Part shown: piece after piece, positions 14,332 to 40,514 of the stretch
How the letters are laid out: each line of letters begins with the position of its first letter
Numbering within the stretch: the stretch's first letter is position 1
IMG/VR virus record: IMGVR_UViG_3300047157_000125
Span: 1 to 47,440 of that record
DNA length: 47,440 nt
From: a virus
Direction: 5' to 3' (one strand)
Notes under the pieces: model-generated
What the model was told of the DNA's origin: nothing
The model's database searches: none
The model's input: only the letters and a program-made list of their open reading frames with translations
Made by a program: the position numbers and the translations under genes

Positions 14332-15315
14332 TCATTCCACAGGAATGTATCTAGTCAGTTGTTCTGATGAACCAACCCCGTCATCGTCGCGGGCAGCCCA
14401 CCATTCGTCCACCCCCGGCTGTGGCTTTACCCACTCTAACAGCCCGTCATCCCTAGTCCGGCAGGGTTTCCCGATCTCAGGCCAATCTAAATACTTGAGT
14501 CGCGTGGTGTACTGCCTCTTTGCAGGCAGTCCGTGCCATCTGTGAAATATATTGAGATTCCTCGGAACTCCTGCCTTGAAGTCCATTGACTGTATGTTGG
14601 CTTTATAGTCGATGTAATCTGGAGACAGGAAGTGGTTCGCTAGATTCTTCCAGTGCGAGCGTATGTCAGGGTGTATGCCAGACTCAGGGTCATTCAAAGC
14701 CTTGAGACTGAATTGCAGGACGTACTCGACTTGCTTCTGTGGAGTGTGTGCAACACAGAACATATGGTCGCCTTCCCCCATGACCCCGTGTTCGTAGAAT
14801 CCTCCGATTGCATCGAAGTGCTTGCGAGTCATAGCAAAGCCAAAGCCGGGGTGATACGTTTCGGATACTGGTGCGCCACCGTTCAGGATGGCATTGAACC
14901 ACGATGGCTTTCTTACTGTAGGATTAACTTCGCCGCTCCTCATCTCCCAGTTGGCAACGTCGAATGGCTGCACAACATCGTACTCGTCTAACGAACTGCA
15001 TATTATGTCAAGCCAGTTCGGGTCTTTGTAGTACAGGTCAGCGTCTATAAAAAGTAACTTGTCTGCGATAGCGTGTGCTGCCGCTAGGTTCCACAGGTTT
15101 TCTTTGAAGAACACTTTATCTTCGCTCTCGAACACAAGTGAGGTAGCAGCACCAACTGTCGGCACTGGGTCTTGCCCTTCCCTTACGACCTGTGCCACAC
15201 ACACCTCAAGGTCATGACCGTGACCAAGAAGAAAGTCTAGGGTGGATTGGAAATGCTTCTTAGGCAACTGTGCATCAACAGGAGAGAAAGCAGCAAGTAC
15301 TACTGAGAGTTTCAT
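14332..15315 (-). CDS. Family 2-like glycosyltransferase
   Basis: A 327-aa predicted GT-A fold transferase. It opens with a strand (MKLSVVLAAFSPV) and has the DxD motif in LLFIDADLYY (D91 and D93 of the chosen protein), which in this fold binds the nucleotide-sugar and metal. Downstream are a GFGFAMTRKHFDAIGGF acceptor-side segment and a C-terminal RWHGLPAKRQYTTR, a W-H-G...R-x-Y-x-x-R pattern known from GT-A enzymes. The start is the ATG at 15313-15315, which overlaps the stop of the sulfotransferase gene as ATGA; the upstream in-frame codons to 15327 are not needed. No membrane helix is seen, so it is likely cytoplasmic and acts during virion assembly or on host sugars. Donor and acceptor are unknown. 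Confidence 0.8.
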   Translation of the reverse strand: MKLSVVLAAFSPVDAQLPKKHFQSTLDFLLGHGHDLEVCVAQVVREGQDPVPTVGAATSLVFESEDKVFFKENLWNLAAAHAIADKLLFIDADLYYKDPNWLDIICSSLDEYDVVQPFDVANWEMRSGEVNPTVRKPSWFNAILNGGAPVSETYHPGFGFAMTRKHFDAIGGFYEHGVMGEGDHMFCVAHTPQKQVEYVLQFSLKALNDPESGIHPDIRSHWKNLANHFLSPDYIDYKANIQSMDFKAGVPRNLNIFHRWHGLPAKRQYTTRLKYLDWPEIGKPCRTRDDGLLEWVKPQPGVDEWWAARDDDGVGSSEQLTRYIPVE

Positions 15316-15890
15316 GGAGCGTACCAATCCTGATGATTAAAGGAATGGGGCCACGAAGTATCTTCGGGTAGGTCTATTCGTAAGAACTCACACAGTTTAG
15401 CCATGTTTGTTTTTGCACCAGCAACTGTGTCTAGCATTAGCAGGCGACGCGACCTATCAGCAAAGTACTTGAACACATCGTCGTAGTGTCGCCTAACCTG
15501 CCAAAGTTTTTTTAGATAGTGCGGACTGTTTCCACTGAACCCCATCTTCATGCACATCCTGCACCAACTCTGTGCAATATCATCAGGGTTTCTATACGTC
15601 AGTATAAATAGACTGTCTGGATTCTGTTCGTCTAGTTCCTTGAAGTACTGGCTGACGGGCCAATCTGATATGCACTGGTGCGGCACTCCATCAAGAATGT
15701 CCCTGCCCTCTGTATGATTTATGTGCATGTGCCTAGAAAACCAATCGTCTTTTTTATGTATGTCACGTTTGTAGTGACCGTCCGAACCAAGATGGATTGA
15801 GTCTAGACCCAGCCTGTGTAACGCATCATTAAGAGAATGCGTACCGCTCTTAGAAGGCCCGATGCCAAACAGTTTATTAAACTCTCTCAT
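15312..15890 (-). CDS. Sulfotransferase (PAPS-dependent, small)
   Basis: A 192-aa protein of the sulfotransferase superfamily. The PAPS 5'-phosphosulfate loop is seen as GIGPSKSGTHSLNDAL (residues 9-24; family form 'G-x-P-R/K-S-G-T-S/T-S-L'), and the 3'-phosphate-binding segment as LTYRNPDDIAQSW (97-109, with R100 and S108). A W-P-V segment and a C-terminal WPHSFNHQDWY follow. It would move sulfate from PAPS to a hydroxyl or amine, commonly of a sugar. At 192 aa it is shorter than typical 250-300-aa members but keeps both binding sites. It is translationally coupled to the glycosyltransferase, which suggests they act on one glycan. The acceptor cannot be told. Confidence 0.8.
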   Translation of the reverse strand: MREFNKLFGIGPSKSGTHSLNDALHRLGLDSIHLGSDGHYKRDIHKKDDWFSRHMHINHTEGRDILDGVPHQCISDWPVSQYFKELDEQNPDSLFILTYRNPDDIAQSWCRMCMKMGFSGNSPHYLKKLWQVRRHYDDVFKYFADRSRRLLMLDTVAGAKTNMAKLCEFLRIDLPEDTSWPHSFNHQDWYAP

Positions 15891-16564
15891 GTGCCACTTG
15901 GTGGTGGGTACGAAGTTGTGAACGTAGTCTTGACGCTAGTCACAGCCGTGTTGGTGGTGGCAGCGTCAATGTCGATTGCTGCTTTATTCCTTGCTTCCAC
16001 AAGAGTTTGGTTGGTGCTGATTAGTCCAGCACAAACATACTTGAGTTCTGCTAATGATAGAGTGACGCTCGTACCAGCAGCGTCCTTAATAGTCGCACCA
16101 GTGTTGGCGTTCTGTGCTACCAGCAGAACCTGTGCTAGATACCCGCGAGTTTCGTCGTCATACTTTAGGCTGACGTTTGCCCCACCGCTACTCTTTGGGA
16201 AGTTAGTTGCGTCTTGCTGCCTAGCCGATGTGTCTGCTTCAATTTCGCTTTTCTTGTCATCCTTGTGTCTTTGCAATGCAGAGGTGTTGAGGTCTCCCGT
16301 AAGATTAACCGCAGCGTAAGAGGCTTGCAGGCTACCACTCACACTGGCGGCATTCCCAAGTTGAACCCTCTGGTTAAACGCAGGGGTAATGTCGGACTCT
16401 GCATTAGTTATCGTGCATTCAGCATAGCCTACCGCAGAAACAATTGACGCTACGTCTGATAGCGTTGTTAATTCTTCTGGAGGAAACGAATACTGAGTTG
16501 CTATGTTTCGTAACTCATCAAGTACGACTGGAGGGCTACCAGCCTGTGCAATATATGTTGGCAT
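15887..16564 (-). CDS. Unknown tail-region protein, 225 aa
   Basis: The product is Ala/Thr/Ser-rich with a helical middle (LQRHKDDKKSEIEADTSARQ) and repeated short hydrophobic stretches, no membrane helix and no recognised domain. Its ATG shares a base overlap with the preceding fibre-region gene and its stop overlaps the sulfotransferase start, so it is translated as part of the tail operon. A minor virion protein is the likeliest role, by position. Confidence 0.65.
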   Translation of the reverse strand: MPTYIAQAGSPPVVLDELRNIATQYSFPPEELTTLSDVASIVSAVGYAECTITNAESDITPAFNQRVQLGNAASVSGSLQASYAAVNLTGDLNTSALQRHKDDKKSEIEADTSARQQDATNFPKSSGGANVSLKYDDETRGYLAQVLLVAQNANTGATIKDAAGTSVTLSLAELKYVCAGLISTNQTLVEARNKAAIDIDAATTNTAVTSVKTTFTTSYPPPSGT

Positions 16565-17502
16565 TATTCAAACTCCTGTTGAATCACAAAACGCTTGCCC
16601 GCTTCTATTGGGCTTAAATCAAAGTTTACTATTCGTGGTGATGCAGTGTTATATGCGGTAGTTAAGAAGTGACTGCCTACCATTCTTGGGTGCGAGTATT
16701 GATACCACGTAGCCCCGCTGTATGACGAACCTCGAATATCTGATGGAAGGGTGCGTTGTCTTAGGAAATCAGTTTCGTATTGATCGTCAGCCCAGTACTG
16801 CAACTGCGAGCGATTTCCAACTCTTCTGCTGTAATAAAAGTCGGACGCACCTTGTCTGTTCCACCCCGTCAAACCCCTGTACGCATCCCATATCCTGTAC
16901 GTCTGCCCGTCAAATACACTGCTTCCTTTAACCAAAGTACACACGGGCTGAGTTATCACATACCTATTTCCCCACCTTCTTGTTAAAGTCCAACTATTAG
17001 CAAACCGATTGCCACCTGTTGCAGTAGTAATGTCCGCAGCGTCAGTTGTAGTAGGGTAGTACCATCTCGCCATTTCTGTGTGGTATGAACGGCCACTACT
17101 TTTGTAGTAATTTAAACTCTTATGCCGCCTCATATCTTCCTGACCGCCCGTAGCAAGAATGAAGTCTGGATGTATAGGCATGCCTGCCTTAACTTTTATC
17201 TCAATACAATCAATCATCGTTCCGGCAGGTACGACAAGTTTTCCGGCTTCGCCATAATCTGTGACTGTCGCAGTCAAGTTGGCAGCAGGTTCATGCGAAG
17301 TAGCCGGTTGGTACGATGGCATCTGATGAAACCCTTGGGCTGCGGTCTGCTTCCGGGTAAACACAGTCACAGTAAAAGTTGAGGCAGGTCTTGAGCGACC
17401 CAGTCCGGGCCTTGTAATTAAGCCGGGGTTGCGATCTGCGAATTGAACACGCCTTTTACGCTCGCCCTCTGCTGCTATCAAACCTGTTTGTATACCAATC
17501 AT
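16564..17502 (-). CDS. Tail-region structural protein, 312 aa
   Basis: The start is the ATG at 17500-17502, because AGGAGG lies four bases upstream; the longer frame to 17544 runs into the fibre gene with no ribosome site. The protein is Tyr/Arg/Thr-rich with beta character (SWTLTRRWGNRYVITQP, FDGQTYRIWDAYRGLTGWNR) and no enzyme motif. The start region (RKRRVQFADRNPGLITRPGL) is basic. It directly follows the large fibre and may form part of the fibre or its receptor-binding tip, which is inference. Confidence 0.65.
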   Translation of the reverse strand: MIGIQTGLIAAEGERKRRVQFADRNPGLITRPGLGRSRPASTFTVTVFTRKQTAAQGFHQMPSYQPATSHEPAANLTATVTDYGEAGKLVVPAGTMIDCIEIKVKAGMPIHPDFILATGGQEDMRRHKSLNYYKSSGRSYHTEMARWYYPTTTDAADITTATGGNRFANSWTLTRRWGNRYVITQPVCTLVKGSSVFDGQTYRIWDAYRGLTGWNRQGASDFYYSRRVGNRSQLQYWADDQYETDFLRQRTLPSDIRGSSYSGATWYQYSHPRMVGSHFLTTAYNTASPRIVNFDLSPIEAGKRFVIQQEFE

Positions 17503-17510
17503 GCCGCCTC

Positions 17511-20500
17511 CTAGAAGTTTTGACCACCGACATGACCGAGCCATGTACTTCCGTTGTCTAAGGACAAGAAGGTAAATGTATCTGTTTTACCACCAGTGTT
17601 AGTTAGCGTAGGAGCCGTGCCTCCGGGCCACTTGAAAGAAGAAGGCCACTGGACAATGGCAGTGGTTGTTCCGCTTCCGGGGTACTTAATGACTAGCGTG
17701 AAAGAGCAAGAAATCCCAGAGGTTGAAGGTATGTTAAGGAGTATTACCGACTGTATTCCAGAAGAAGCACAAGTCCAACTATGTATCTTGTTGCCGTCTG
17801 CAAGATTTATGACTACGCCGCCACCAGAGGAACTGGTAAAGGAATCTGGGTTGTAGTTTTCAAAAACACTATTGCCCGAGTCGTACCTAAGCAAAGAGTT
17901 GTCGCTTGGCGTTCCGGTAATAGTGACATCGTTAAGGCCATTAAGACTAGACGCACCACCGCCGCCACCACTAGGTGTAGCCGGACTCCAAGCCGATCCA
18001 CTCCATTGCAGCGTTTGCCCTGACGTAGCACCTCCCTGTGCGATCTCGCTAAGTGGCAGCCCTTGAGTGATTGCTACAGCACCATTGAGTGTGGTCGTCA
18101 CATTACCAATGGTAACCCCACCGCTTCCAATTGATATTTTATTCGCACCACCATGCACAAGATTTAAATTGTTGCTTGTGTATGACAGTCCAGTATCTGT
18201 GTCGCTAGTAAAACACAGCGATGGGGCATTTTGAGTGCCGTCCGGTATGCGGGTTTGGTTTGTAAATGTAGTGACTTGTGCTGCAATTGTGATCTTTGCT
18301 GTACCATCAAAACTAAATGCTAACCCGGAGTCGTAGGATATCCCTGTATTAGTATTGCCAATAAAACAAATAGTAGGACTGCTGGCACTACCGTCTGATA
18401 ATCGTATGTCACTGCCAGTGGATATCTCAAAGCGACTGTTGTTGGTGAGGTACATACGATTGCGAAAGTATGACCTACCATCGAACCTGTTGTAGTCAGC
18501 ATCGCCATCTTGGAATATTGCGTATCTGTTATCGATACCGTCTGGCGAAGTTCCGTAAGTCGCTGAAGCACCCGTTGCCATAGAGTCAATATAAAGTGCG
18601 GCAACAGTTGTAACATTACCCGTTGAACTTGTGGGTATGTCTACATTAACACGAACGCCGTAAACATTACTCCACGTTCCTGTAGCACTTTGATGGTAGT
18701 TATGGAAATAGCCTGCGGCAGAAGTTGTTCCGTCTGCACCCTGCGAGTTCATATATGACTTAAAGCCTGCAACATCATTTGATGATGTGCCTCCTTGTGC
18801 TACGCAATAGAACTCACCACCAATCGCTTCGTTTGCCATTGAAGAAGAAGTGTTATAGATGTTGTACCCAAACAAGGAACTTCTTCTTGAGTTACCATTC
18901 AACTCTAGAAGTGCTGCTCTAGCACCGTTGTATATGGTCGGCCTACCGTTACCGATGTGTGACTTGTAACCAAACTCTGCAACGTGATTGTGTGCCGCAG
19001 CGATTGCGAAACCATAGCCAGCATTGTTACCACCATTGACCATGCTGGACGGCGTGTACCATCCAGTACCATCAACAGTCCCGTCAATTTCAAACGCTGG
19101 GTCGGTAGCACTTCCGTTGGTGTCAGCAATATACCTATCGGAATACGTGATGCCCTTAGTCTCAGTATCACCTTCAACTAATAGTTTGCGATTGTCTGGG
19201 TTATAGCCATTCGTGGTGCTAGCACCAATGATCACATCTCCTGAACCACCAAGGGCGTAGCACAAGAAAACGTCATCGCCAACATAGTGATTAAGACTTA
19301 GATGCCCACCGGCAGAGTCAATGACCATGTAGCCAGAATTACCAGTGTCAGCCTTAATTGTTGGCTGACCGGCATTTCTGTGGAACGTAGATGCGTTAGC
19401 GTTAAAGTTGACTCGGTTATTCCCCCCAGAAGATATACCTACTTGGTTGGCGGCAGGGAAATAAATGCCGGTATTCCCATCGCTGGTTCTTCCGTATGCA
19501 GTAGAATCTTTAGTTCCATCGGTGTTTGATCTGTACACAGGTGCGTAAACCGCACCTGCGGTTACTTCGAGTGCCTGACTCGTTATGAGTACCTGCTTAC
19601 TGCCAGCACACGAAACAGCCATCTGATCATTAGCAGGGAAGTAGATGCCAGTATTGCTGTCGCCTTCCACTGAAATTTTTGGCGCAGTAGGTGTGTTACC
19701 TTGAGCGACATAAAGTTCTGTGTTAAAGAATTGATCGCAGTAGTGCCTCGTGAGATTAGAGGAAGCGTACTGCACCATGAGGTTGTCGTTGGCGTAGAGT
19801 TTTAGATTGATCGCACCTTTTGTGCCGACATTCATATTACTGGTGGTGATACCCATGCCAGCATAAGTCGATCCGCTTGTGTATAGTCGGATATAATCAA
19901 AGTCGGTTGCGTTAGCAGAGAATCCTGCCCCTTGCGCACCAAAGTCAATTTTTCTTTTGTTCGTTCCATCCCTGCTAAAAGCAACATCGCCAGTAAACGT
20001 GCCGCCAGCAAGCGGCATCTTGGTTGCAATGCTATTAGTGACTGTTGTGCTAAATGAAGCGTCGTCACCAAGTGCAGCGGCTAATTCATTAAGGGTGTCT
20101 AATGCACCGGGGGCTGAGTCTATTACGTTGTTTATTGCGGTAGTAATGTCAGATGTAGTTGCGTAAGTTCCCGCTACCTGTGCGCCAATGGCTGATCGGG
20201 CATCTGCTTCAGTCGCACTGTCAAGTAAATCTCTGCCGATAGGCTTGCAAGTAATTTCTAGAATTTCCCCGCCAGTTACCGAACCGAGTAGTCTATTAGC
20301 ACTAACATCTTGCATCTTGGCAAACGTAACAGCATCGTCTGCAAGTTTTGCAGTAGATACAGCACCGTTTATAATTTTGTCTTGGTTAACAGCACCATCT
20401 TGCAACTTTGCTGTAGACACACTGTTGTCTGTAGGGACACGCTCATCACTCAAGCGTGCATCAGTGGTGTCAATCTTGGTGAATCTATCTTCTCGCCAAG

Positions 20501-20826
20501 GCTACCAGTAGGATAATTACCCATAGGCAGGGAGCCTACAGCGGCATAGGGAACGTAGGTTTCAGTAAACCTGCCCTCGTTGTTACGGACTAATGTTTTA
20601 CCGTCAGGGCCAATTGGTGCGGTACGAACGTATCAACGTCGGCAAGGTCGCTCAAGCCTTTGGGTTACATACCCTAACGCATTGTAATGAGTTACGCCGT
20701 CACCAATTTTAATTTTCTGAAACCCGTCAGATCTGTTCTTCAATAATCAACTGACCGTCTAACGGTATTTCGTTAGCGGCTGTCTAATTGTGCTTTAGTC
20801 CCTCGTCGCTGCTGGACAAATGGCAT
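17511..20826 (-). CDS. Tail fibre with Mtd-type N terminus, about 1104 aa (five frameshifts near 5' end)
   Basis: A receptor-binding fibre. The intact frame (17511-20453, 980 aa) has repeated fibre units with NTGIYFPA-type cores (DSNTGIYFPANDQMAVSCAG, DGNTGIYFPAANQVGISSGG, and two weaker ones NTNTGISYDSG and DTDTGLSYTSN), then TSGQTLQWSGSAWSPA and a beta-rich C terminus. The 5' 370 bases hold the real N terminus: from an ATG at 20824-20826 (TAATG overlap with the upstream stop) one reads MPFVQQRRGTKAQLDS and later KIKIGDGVTHYNALGY, the RRGT...KIGDG pattern of the Mtd/hyaluronate-lyase N-terminal attachment domain, then IGPDGKTLVRNNEGRFTETY. Five one-base changes (near 20778, 20736, 20678, 20635 and 20490) restore a single frame of 1105 codons. 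The fibre attaches the virion to the cell surface. Confidence 0.8.
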
Positions 20827-21176
20827 TATTCTTCCTCAACATTGTTTCTTCGTAGTGAGTACTCAACAGATAGTTCTGCACGGTGCTGCCCATACTCCAG
20901 CATGAGTGCGGTCAGTTCTTCTATAGACAGTGCGTGAGGCTCTCCGTCTCTGGAGATTACAGGGGGTATGTCTAGGTCTAGTGCGGCTGCTTCTTTTGCA
21001 AGAACAAAGTTGCCAGTTAGTAATGTGACATCGCTATCCGTGAGACCAAGTTTAATACCTTCACTGCTTTCAAAACCCAGTGCAACTTGTTCAGCGAACC
21101 ATTCGTCGGCTTCCCGTTGTGCGACAATCGCATCACACTCTGCAAGTTTTGCCTCGTTCAATGTAAACCTACTCAT
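20826..21176 (-). CDS. Small tail-region protein, 116 aa
   Basis: The start is taken as the ATG at 21174-21176, overlapping the stop of the previous gene (ATGAGTAG), rather than the longer frame to 21209. The product is acidic and helical (FTLNEAKLAECDAIVAQREA, SIEELTALMLEYGQHRAELS) with no known domain. Its TAA is joined to the fibre ATG as TAATG, so it is produced with the fibre; an assembly or chaperone role is possible, by position only. Confidence 0.65.
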   Translation of the reverse strand: MSRFTLNEAKLAECDAIVAQREADEWFAEQVALGFESSEGIKLGLTDSDVTLLTGNFVLAKEAAALDLDIPPVISRDGEPHALSIEELTALMLEYGQHRAELSVEYSLRRNNVEEE

Positions 21177-21552
21177 CTTCCTCGACCTCCGGTTCTGGTT
21201 CTGGATCAATTAGTCCTTCGGCAAGTGCTTTCTCACGTAACTCTTCAGGCAACTCTTGCTCAGGCTCGTCGTCAAATTCAAAAGAAAAGTATGTCCCATC
21301 TTCCTCGGCCTCCTTGCAGGCCAAGAAGACATAAGAACCAAGCCCACGCCCATCTGCGTGCGTGTCAAAGTCAACCTCTATGGCGGATTGATACTTCACT
21401 TCTGGAAGTTCGTGCCGAGGTACGATAATAAACCGCATTCCGAAATCCACATCTTTCTGTGCGATCTCTGCCACGGTGTACTCTGACGTTTTAGAAGGAT
21501 GCATAACCCCGCAAGAGCCATCTTCCTTTTCGTATATTATTGAACTGTCCAT
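21169..21552 (-). CDS. Fibre-associated protein of the 'AxKDVPxG' type, 127 aa
   Basis: The N-terminal half follows a pattern common in phage tail regions: YTVAEIAQKDVDFGMRFIIV, then ELPEVKYQSAIEVDFD, i.e. 'E-I-A-x-K-D-V-x-x-G-x-x-x-x-I-V...L-P'. The C-terminal 35 residues are acidic low-complexity (EPEPEVEEDE). The family accompanies tail fibre genes and may assist fibre assembly; no biochemical function is established. It starts two bases after the preceding 498-aa protein. Confidence 0.6.
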   Translation of the reverse strand: MDSSIIYEKEDGSCGVMHPSKTSEYTVAEIAQKDVDFGMRFIIVPRHELPEVKYQSAIEVDFDTHADGRGLGSYVFLACKEAEEDGTYFSFEFDDEPEQELPEELREKALAEGLIDPEPEPEVEEDE

Positions 21553-38516: not shown

Positions 38517-38820
38517 TGCTCACTCCTGATTCAAGTTCGCGGAATGTGTTAGTAATTGGAGCGAAGTCCCACGCGCCGAGGTCTTCCCAGCCATGATCCC
38601 CTTGTAATGATGGATCGTCTTTGTGATGGCAAGAGTTGTGGACTGTAGCAAACCCGGCGGGCGAGAACGTCAGGATGCTTATGGTCGTATCCCCCGGTTC
38701 AGACGCTACAAAACCGACTTGTTGGTTTTTGAAAGTTTGCCAATCCTTGCTGAACAACACGATATCCCCCATGCTGGGAACCGGCATTGTCCATTGTTTC
38801 TCTTTAGTGGCAGTCATCAT
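38494..38820 (-). CDS. Small conserved protein between terminase and portal, 108 aa
   Basis: A probable compact beta-rich protein. It contains PVPSMGDIVLFSKDWQTF, FVASEPGDTTISILTFSPAG and NSCHHKDDPSLQGDHGWEDL. The first resembles the small SH3-like folds sometimes found beside terminases. The ATG overlaps the terminase stop as ATGA; its function is not known. Cys/His residues near 63-65 are too few for a confident zinc site. Confidence 0.65.
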   Translation of the reverse strand: MMTATKEKQWTMPVPSMGDIVLFSKDWQTFKNQQVGFVASEPGDTTISILTFSPAGFATVHNSCHHKDDPSLQGDHGWEDLGAWDFAPITNTFRELESGVSSGRKSTK

Positions 38821-40514
38821 TCCCCTCCTTGCGGGCCTAAGTAAACATGACCGGGGTCACCTTGCCCCTGTCTTTTTTTTCTTTCTTGCTGCCATTTTAC
38901 CCACCAAGGTTCCTTCTCCCCATTACGAATTGGTGGCTTGTGGTAATGTGGGCGATATGCACATAAGTACTCTAAGCACTGGCACAAATGCACTTCTCCC
39001 TTTGAATTAGGCTTGTCGGTTACTATTGGTGTGCCAGATATGTAATTGACTAACTTCCTGTACCTTTTAATTTCCCTGATTAAATCCGGGCAAGTACCTT
39101 CAAGGACTCGAAGAGTAGGGCTTCCTTGCGGTCTTATATGCAATGCAACCCGTGTGGACTCAGTCCTTGCCTGTATGTCGTCGCACCCTGCTAGAAAACT
39201 AGAGCCTGTTATTTCAGAACGTATTCCATGATGGACTAACTGCTCCGTGTATTGCTCCGATGGCAAACGACCGCTGCCTAAATCTCTAAGCCTTGCTCCG
39301 TGGGCATCAATGATGAAAGCGTGAAAGTGCCAGTCTCGAACCTTCTCAGTAAACCTCTTGCCAAAGATTGTGGCGTTGCATTGGCGTAGGTATAATTGGT
39401 CGTAACAGAGGATGTACGATTCGTCTGGGGGAACAGCCGCAAACAGGATAGCAGTGACTGCATGGCCCGGATCAATAACTGCGTACCGTGTCCACTCATG
39501 GGGTATCTGCCCGTTCGGTAACTCAGCCCTGTCTAGTCCATGTATCCTCATGTCAAAGTTAGGGTACATCAATATGCTATCAGTAACGAAGTCACCCTCG
39601 GCACGCATTCTTAATATGTCGTCGCCTAGAGCAGCCCACCGCTCGATACTCTTTTTCTTTTCTTCCTGATCTAGGTAGGGGTTGTCGAGAAACCTCAACT
39701 TGAACTGTTGTATGTTCGACTCTTTGCCTAGGTCTGCCGTCGATGCCTCCGCCCGCTCCTTTAAACCTAGCAGTGCGTTGTTAGTCGAATGCGGCATAGC
39801 AGACCAGCACAGCATTCCCTTGCGGTCAACTATACGGGCCTGCATTTCAGGAACCCATCTCTCATCCGAAATATCTTCATCGATATGGACACGGTTGCAA
39901 TTGAAGCCTTGTACAGGCTCACCTTCGCTAGAGAAGAAATGTATTTGCCACCCATTGTGCAGCGTACACCTTTGCATATAGTTAGCACTACGCAACAACC
40001 ACGACGTACTTTTGATCATACGTTTTGGTATAAGAGGCGGAGCAGGCTTTGCCTCAGACCTCCTTGGCTCATCAGTCTCTGGATTGTACGCACGCCAGTC
40101 ATTCGTTTTTTCGTCTCGTATGATCTTGAACGCACCTTCATTGAACAGGTACGGCACTGCAACTAGACCTATGTGCTTCCAGTCTTTTCCAACAATGACA
40201 AGGATGCCATCCTTTTCTGGGTACTTCTTAAAAGGGTCTTGTCCTGTAACAGCCCTAGCATCTTCCACAAAAGTGCATAGCGATTTACCTGATCTATTAC
40301 CACCGATGACGAGTACTTCACTTGCTTTTGTTTCGTGTACTTCCGCCTGATTTTCGTTTGGTTGGTACAGCCTCAGTGCCTCTACCTGCCTGTCCTTCAA
40401 TTCCTGCTGGACTTCCTTCAGGTGATCCATTTGATGCTGGGTCATACCCGATTGCACGGGTACTGTTTTCGCCGTCACCTTCGGATGTTTCTTCGATCTT
40501 TTTCGCTGTGGCAT
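38817..40514 (-). CDS. terL: Terminase large subunit
   Basis: The ATPase-nuclease motor that packages DNA. Residues 71-78 carry the Walker A GGNRSGKS, residues 209-214 the Walker B/catalytic VHIDED, and the RNase H-like nuclease half has AVIDPGHA (D348) and FIIDAHGARL (D403) metal ligands. A C-terminal basic region (KKRQGQGD) follows. At 565 aa it is normal for the family. The start ATG at 40512-40514 is preceded by AAGGAAAG; an alternative Met24 (40445) would make the overlap with the small-terminase gene shorter. It lies directly before the 108-aa gene and portal. Confidence 0.9.
   Translation of the reverse strand: MPQRKRSKKHPKVTAKTVPVQSGMTQHQMDHLKEVQQELKDRQVEALRLYQPNENQAEVHETKASEVLVIGGNRSGKSLCTFVEDARAVTGQDPFKKYPEKDGILVIVGKDWKHIGLVAVPYLFNEGAFKIIRDEKTNDWRAYNPETDEPRRSEAKPAPPLIPKRMIKSTSWLLRSANYMQRCTLHNGWQIHFFSSEGEPVQGFNCNRVHIDEDISDERWVPEMQARIVDRKGMLCWSAMPHSTNNALLGLKERAEASTADLGKESNIQQFKLRFLDNPYLDQEEKKKSIERWAALGDDILRMRAEGDFVTDSILMYPNFDMRIHGLDRAELPNGQIPHEWTRYAVIDPGHAVTAILFAAVPPDESYILCYDQLYLRQCNATIFGKRFTEKVRDWHFHAFIIDAHGARLRDLGSGRLPSEQYTEQLVHHGIRSEITGSSFLAGCDDIQARTESTRVALHIRPQGSPTLRVLEGTCPDLIREIKRYRKLVNYISGTPIVTDKPNSKGEVHLCQCLEYLCAYRPHYHKPPIRNGEKEPWWVKWQQERKKRQGQGDPGHVYLGPQGGE

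Follow-up and report, generated by a model that had tools for sequence, protein, structure and literature searches.

Why would a phage keep a sulfotransferase and a glycosyltransferase among its tail genes, and which molecule could the two enzymes modify? This question is raised by the virus record IMGVR_UViG_3300047157_000125, whose 47,440 bases, analysed here as a whole and called the window, carry nearly every gene on the minus strand, with capsid and terminase-like genes in the right part and a DNA-processing region in the left part. The two genes lie in a minus-strand run that begins with a 980-aa tail fibre (17511..20453; PHROG tail-fibre matches down to 1e-15) and continues with a candidate hypervariable tip, a candidate DUF4376-like chaperone, the sulfotransferase (ST) and the glycosyltransferase (GT), beyond which a 649-aa protein is encoded. 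Both reading frames named in the original prediction are real genes and overlap as ATGA, as was proposed, when ATG 15315 is taken as the GT start instead of the TTG 15327 of the ORF list; a second ATGA overlap joins the DUF4376-like gene to ST. Downstream of the fibre, ST comes third and GT fourth.

The terminase of the window (38817-40514) has relatives at 48 IMG/VR loci (L010-L057) and no detectable match among the 50,697 phage records of INPHARED, in which cultured relatives of the portal and the DUF4376-like protein were not found either. These comparisons place the window's terminase lineage in an uncultured phage group. At two loci of this lineage (L051 and L052, 2001-4085), the terminase large subunit contains an in-frame insertion of ~135 aa in its Walker A motif (GGNR/CIGAG...VINHN/SGKS), which looks like a mini-intein.

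Identity of the sulfotransferase

The 192-aa ST (15312..15890, minus strand) matches the Sulfotransfer_4 family PF17784 with 75.3 bits against a cut-off of 22.8 (E=8e-21), and its copy in G008, a phage of the same terminase family, matches with E 4e-19. Its nearest solved relatives by sequence are SgdX2 (8y9p) and the sulfotransferase 5tiv, with which its GxGPSKSGTxSL loop, D76 and YRNPDDIAQS segment can be aligned. The residues G9-x-G11...K14-S-G16-T17, D76, R100, and S108 are retained at the PAPS and catalytic positions, so that ST keeps the loop for the 5' phosphate of PAPS, the arginine and serine for the 3'-phosphate, and an aspartate preceding the post-loop helix; a homologue at locus L131 also retains the loop core, D76, R100, and S108. 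Taken together, family and motifs identify ST as a PAPS-type sulfotransferase with predicted activity, as originally proposed, and D76 would be its catalytic base. No ST homologue was detected in INPHARED at E<=1e-3, and tblastn searches with E up to 10 gave only chance-level matches. Membrane segments were predicted in neither ST nor GT, and PHROGs and NCBIfam gave no functional assignment for ST, GT or the tip. As a route to the host, a bacterial and archaeal genome collection was searched with GT and ST profiles, and no relative was recovered with the patterns used.

Identity of the glycosyltransferase

The assignment of the 327-aa GT (14332..15315, minus strand) depends on its predicted structure together with its motifs. 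The window copy matches the GT2 family PF00535 with E=0.007 and 16.7 bits, which is under the 23.3 cut-off, whereas its G008 homologue passes it with 24.1 bits. An AlphaFold model built from three sequences is only moderately reliable (pTM 0.68, mean pLDDT 63). Foldseek returned 293 PDB matches to this model at E<=0.001, and the best 50 of them are glycosyltransferases with probability 1.00, albeit with TM-scores of only 0.2-0.6; O-antigen-type and wall-teichoic-acid transferases such as WrtF, TarS, RmlT, and GtrB are included among the matches. The motifs DAD (91-93), HPGFG, GGF...GEGD, and WHG are common to the homologue in the related-terminase locus G001, which is 37-39% identical to the window GT, and in part to that of jumbo phage XaC1, the sole relative in a cultured phage (21% identity), around which no informative annotation was found. 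D91-x-D93 and G-x-GD (180-183) are retained in the window, G001, G008, and XaC1. GT can hence be predicted to be a glycosyltransferase of the GT-A fold, in line with the class given originally, and the catalytic residues whose loss from both proteins would have refuted the original prediction are in place.

The candidate fibre tip and the candidate chaperone

The tip candidate, listed as an ORF of 326 aa (16564..17544, minus strand), has no match in Pfam or PHROG, and its role is suggested by its position and variability. Its true start is likely at 17502 (312 aa), directly past the fibre stop, because the G008 copy lacks ATG 17544 and keeps ATG 17502. The window and G008 copies share 84% of amino acids and 89% of nucleotides; their codon differences, 50 nonsynonymous and 32 synonymous, are clustered and often change more than one base within DNA that is elsewhere almost the same, and the dS of 0.22 is the lowest within the exchanged block described below. 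This variation is likely to reflect diversifying selection, which would make the tip a probable receptor-binding surface. A diversity-generating retroelement was considered as its source and rejected, with no reverse transcriptase noticed among the window genes and codon changes that extend beyond template-adenine positions.

The gene between the tip and ST (15887..16564, minus strand) encodes a 225-aa protein whose residues 100-206 resemble PF14301 (E=0.001; 20 bits, under the cut-off of 25); its G008 copy matches with E=0.002. Its identity to the G008 and G001 counterparts, which lie at the same position, is 96% and 51%. In three published reports, DUF4376 forms the C-terminal part of tail-fibre chaperones (PMC7289586, PMC10579305, PMC7882524), and the match in the window protein is likewise C-terminal, suggesting a candidate chaperone. 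A second protein with weak likeness to DUF4376 is encoded upstream of the fibre (20826-21209) and is kept in G001, G003, G008, and G015.

Exchange of the host-recognition cassette

From 14512 to 17810, the window and G008 share a block of ~3.3 kb with 86.4% nucleotide identity, compared with ~69% across the capsid-to-portal backbone. The fibre-side edge of the block lies at 17810, so that the final ~100 fibre codons fall within it, and at the other side the comparison extends to where the G008 contig terminates inside GT. Since block identity exceeds that of the backbone, ST and GT have moved together with the tip and the chaperone candidate. Identity at 4-fold sites is 0.59-0.86 for GT, ST, the DUF4376-like gene, and the tip, compared to 0.31-0.50 for terminase, portal, and capsid, and this contrast indicates a recent exchange beyond mere constraint. 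From these comparisons, ST and GT are seen to travel within an exchangeable host-recognition cassette; a strong foreign signature in GC or GC3 was not found in these genes. The dN/dS ratios against G008 are ~0.09 for ST (0.068/0.76) and ~0.08 for GT (0.080/1.03), indicating strong purifying selection on both and showing that they are more than chance ORFs.

Gene by gene among the related-terminase loci, many of which are fragments, GT and the DUF4376-like gene were found only in G008 and G001, and the window ST only in G008, an absence elsewhere that is weak evidence in such contigs. The neighbours are conserved to different extents: G008 keeps both enzymes, while G001 keeps the order fibre, tip (264 aa), DUF4376-like gene, and GT, with ST absent. 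ST and GT are therefore separable. This speaks against an obligate two-step pathway, and the coupled route to a sulfated sugar that was first envisaged is not supported.

Sulfotransferase-like genes behind adhesins in other phages

The association of a sulfotransferase with an adhesin recurs in a second protein family. The sister phage G003 carries a 178-aa ST-like gene, different from the window ST, that overlaps the end of the fibre gene as ATGA. Its family has an R-x-PV-x-RF-x-S motif, and the best PDB matches to a model of the G003 protein are mostly sulfotransferases, none of them individually significant (best E 0.02). Sulfotransfer_2 matches were obtained for 11 of 32 family members (best E 1.4e-4), at least one of them above the cut-off. 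Shared ancestry with the window ST was considered and set aside, as no homology is detectable. With 100% identity across 125 nt and 88% across 291 nt, the G003 fibre tip resembles the tip encoded on L105, an unrelated contig of 243,821 bases with an ST-like gene of its own. This provides a second instance of a tip and such a gene moving jointly. Near this tip and ST-like gene, L105 also encodes a GlmS-like protein, a GT2 glycosyltransferase, and a subtilase-like protein. In the more distant G023 of the same terminase family, an ST-like gene overlaps an adhesin-like gene.

A profile search with the ST-like family recovered 43 IMG/VR loci, 27 of them non-redundant, and in all 26 testable non-redundant loci a same-strand gene lies ahead at a gap of -4 to +28 nt. 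Most of the genes ahead resemble genes for tail proteins: many have matches among tail-fibre, minor-tail, or baseplate PHROGs or encode LRR, FN3, F5/8, or lectin-like domains, and a few, for example at L156 and L160, are not adhesin-like. Because the loci are homologous, they count as only partly independent; the linkage to adhesins is made informative by the diversity of their tips and of the phages that carry them. The tie between the enzymes and the fibre module, claimed at first for the window, is thus borne out twice, by a block exchanged as a unit and by similar genes behind adhesins elsewhere.

Two arrangements come close to that of the window. In three loci from different samples (L157-L159), a single fusion protein joins an ST-like domain with DUF4376 (E 7e-17) and is encoded behind an LRR-like adhesin; in the window, the DUF4376-like gene immediately precedes ST. 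In contigs of 146 and 381 kb (L131 and L132), an F5/8-type adhesin shares an operon, in which all genes overlap, with two members of the ST-like family, an oxygenase-like gene, and a Sulfotransfer_4 homologue of the window ST (E 6e-14 to the window ST; PF17784 6e-25). Oxygenase-like genes accompany ST-like genes behind adhesins at L131 and L132 (2977-5111) and at L134 (2426-3552), with weak matches to aspartyl/asparaginyl hydroxylases and WelO5; they might encode further tip-modifying enzymes.

Possible acceptors of the two enzymes

For the window, the reading to which we give an even chance is that ST and GT modify the tail-fibre tip, or the fibre, on the virion during assembly. The cassette would comprise the fibre C-terminus, the variable tip, the DUF4376-type chaperone, ST, and GT, with the enzymes as its cargo. 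Both would be cytosolic and produced late alongside the fibre, and would draw on PAPS and a nucleotide sugar supplied by the host, because no supply pathway was found in the window. While the chaperone folds the protein, they could alter tip or fibre side chains, at the same or different acceptor sites, and thereby shift the charge of the adhesin and the way it binds. The activities, the acceptor, and its place on the virion are inferred; the position of the genes, their co-transfer, the chaperone fusion, and the lack of membrane segments together favour virion modification. Of these, co-transfer fits a host target equally well, and the fusion to the chaperone domain is the only one that points clearly to the virion. 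A broader proposal, which we rate somewhat below an even chance, is that phages widely carry small adhesin-modifying sulfotransferases, directly behind the tip or fused to its chaperone, which would sulfate the tip during assembly and tune host binding, accompanied by GT in the window and by the oxygenase-like enzyme elsewhere.

The same linkage could arise if ST and GT change the host surface glycan bound by the tip, thereby blocking adsorption of progeny or competitor phages; infected cells and debris would no longer adsorb phage, and superinfection or re-adsorption would be prevented. The enzymes would be linked to the cassette because they have to match the receptor, which also accounts for co-transfer with the tip. 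Phage glycosyltransferases in host-recognition regions are commonly read as O-chain modifiers (PMC7029224), and the matches of the GT model to WrtF, TarS, RmlT, and GtrB point in this direction. However, both enzymes are without membrane segments, no GtrA-type Pfam match was found in the window, and expression from a presumably late structural operon would be late for superinfection exclusion. The fusion of an ST-like domain to DUF4376 and the many unrelated adhesins ahead of ST-like genes also suit a virion target better, and we regard masking of the receptor, the main rival, as less likely than virion modification.

It is less likely still that the two enzymes are independent passengers brought together by cassette shuffling, one with its target on the virion and the other with a host or small-molecule target. 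In G001, GT stands without ST, and most ST-like loci have no visible GT alongside; the enzymes thus need not act sequentially. The known PF17784 members, including the closest solved relatives of ST, are presumably enzymes of small molecules. Yet ST and GT overlap and move together in both known copies of the cassette, which argues against separate acceptors. Finally, phage sulfotransferases frequently appear in lists of auxiliary metabolic genes (PMC8290583, PMC12285232), but an accidental placement of genes that tune host sulfur or carbohydrate metabolism is very improbable, given that a Pfam search found no PAPS-synthesis or nucleotide-sugar genes in the window, consistent with the original remark on the absence of metabolic genes nearby, and that such genes repeatedly stand straight behind adhesins and are transferred with the tip.

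Comparison with known systems

Phage sulfotransferases, virion glycosylation, and glycosyltransferases in host-recognition regions are already known, whereas we found no description of sulfotransferases tied to tail adhesins in the searchable literature, which is itself incomplete. The expectation that few phages encode sulfotransferases next to tail genes agrees with the lack of ST homologues among cultured phages in INPHARED, but fails for uncultured phages, in which sulfotransferase-like genes behind tail adhesins are not rare. The adhesin-linked position, the chaperone fusion, and the co-transfer with the tip offer a specific and testable alternative to the label of metabolic gene for phage sulfotransferases, namely that the receptor-binding protein, or the receptor it matches, is chemically modified. 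Should tips prove to be sulfated, phage host range would gain a post-translational layer; fibre sequence alone would be insufficient for reading host range, and recombinant fibres without their partner enzymes could misbind or fail to bind.

The gtr clusters for O-antigen conversion in temperate phages likewise contain a phage glycosyltransferase that could alter a receptor, as GT could, but the membrane flippase and membrane-anchored transferase that characterize them were not found in the window, where GT and ST, free of membrane segments, lie in the tail module and no GtrA-type Pfam match was obtained. SgdX2 and 5tiv are sequence homologues of ST with the same PAPS motifs, and the window protein differs from known PF17784 members in being short and in residing in an adhesin operon. 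Sulfotransfer_3 genes have been reported in marine phages, in genomes of OM43 phages and in S-SRM01, a Synechococcus phage, with a function that the authors call unclear (PMC10580990); in the accessible text of that report they resemble ST as phage-encoded PAPS sulfotransferases, belong to a different Pfam family, and are described without tail linkage. Alteromonas phages V22 and A5 (PMC7289586, PMC10579305) carry, in the gene order seen in the window with its candidate chaperone, a central fibre, a tail fibre or tip, and a DUF4376 chaperone in a module common to distantly related phages, just as the window cassette is exchanged; the likeness at the protein level is given by the weak DUF4376 match. 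Unlike the window, no sulfotransferase or glycosyltransferase is mentioned behind the chaperone in the accessible parts of these reports. In mycobacteriophages such as Che8, glycans covalently attached to virion proteins have been attributed to phage glycosyltransferases (Freeman 2023, cited in PMC11256854). As far as that account goes, they are capsid glycans, with no mention of a sulfotransferase or of a fibre-tip cassette, unlike the window, and they nevertheless provide a precedent for phage enzymes that modify the virion, as is proposed here for ST and GT.
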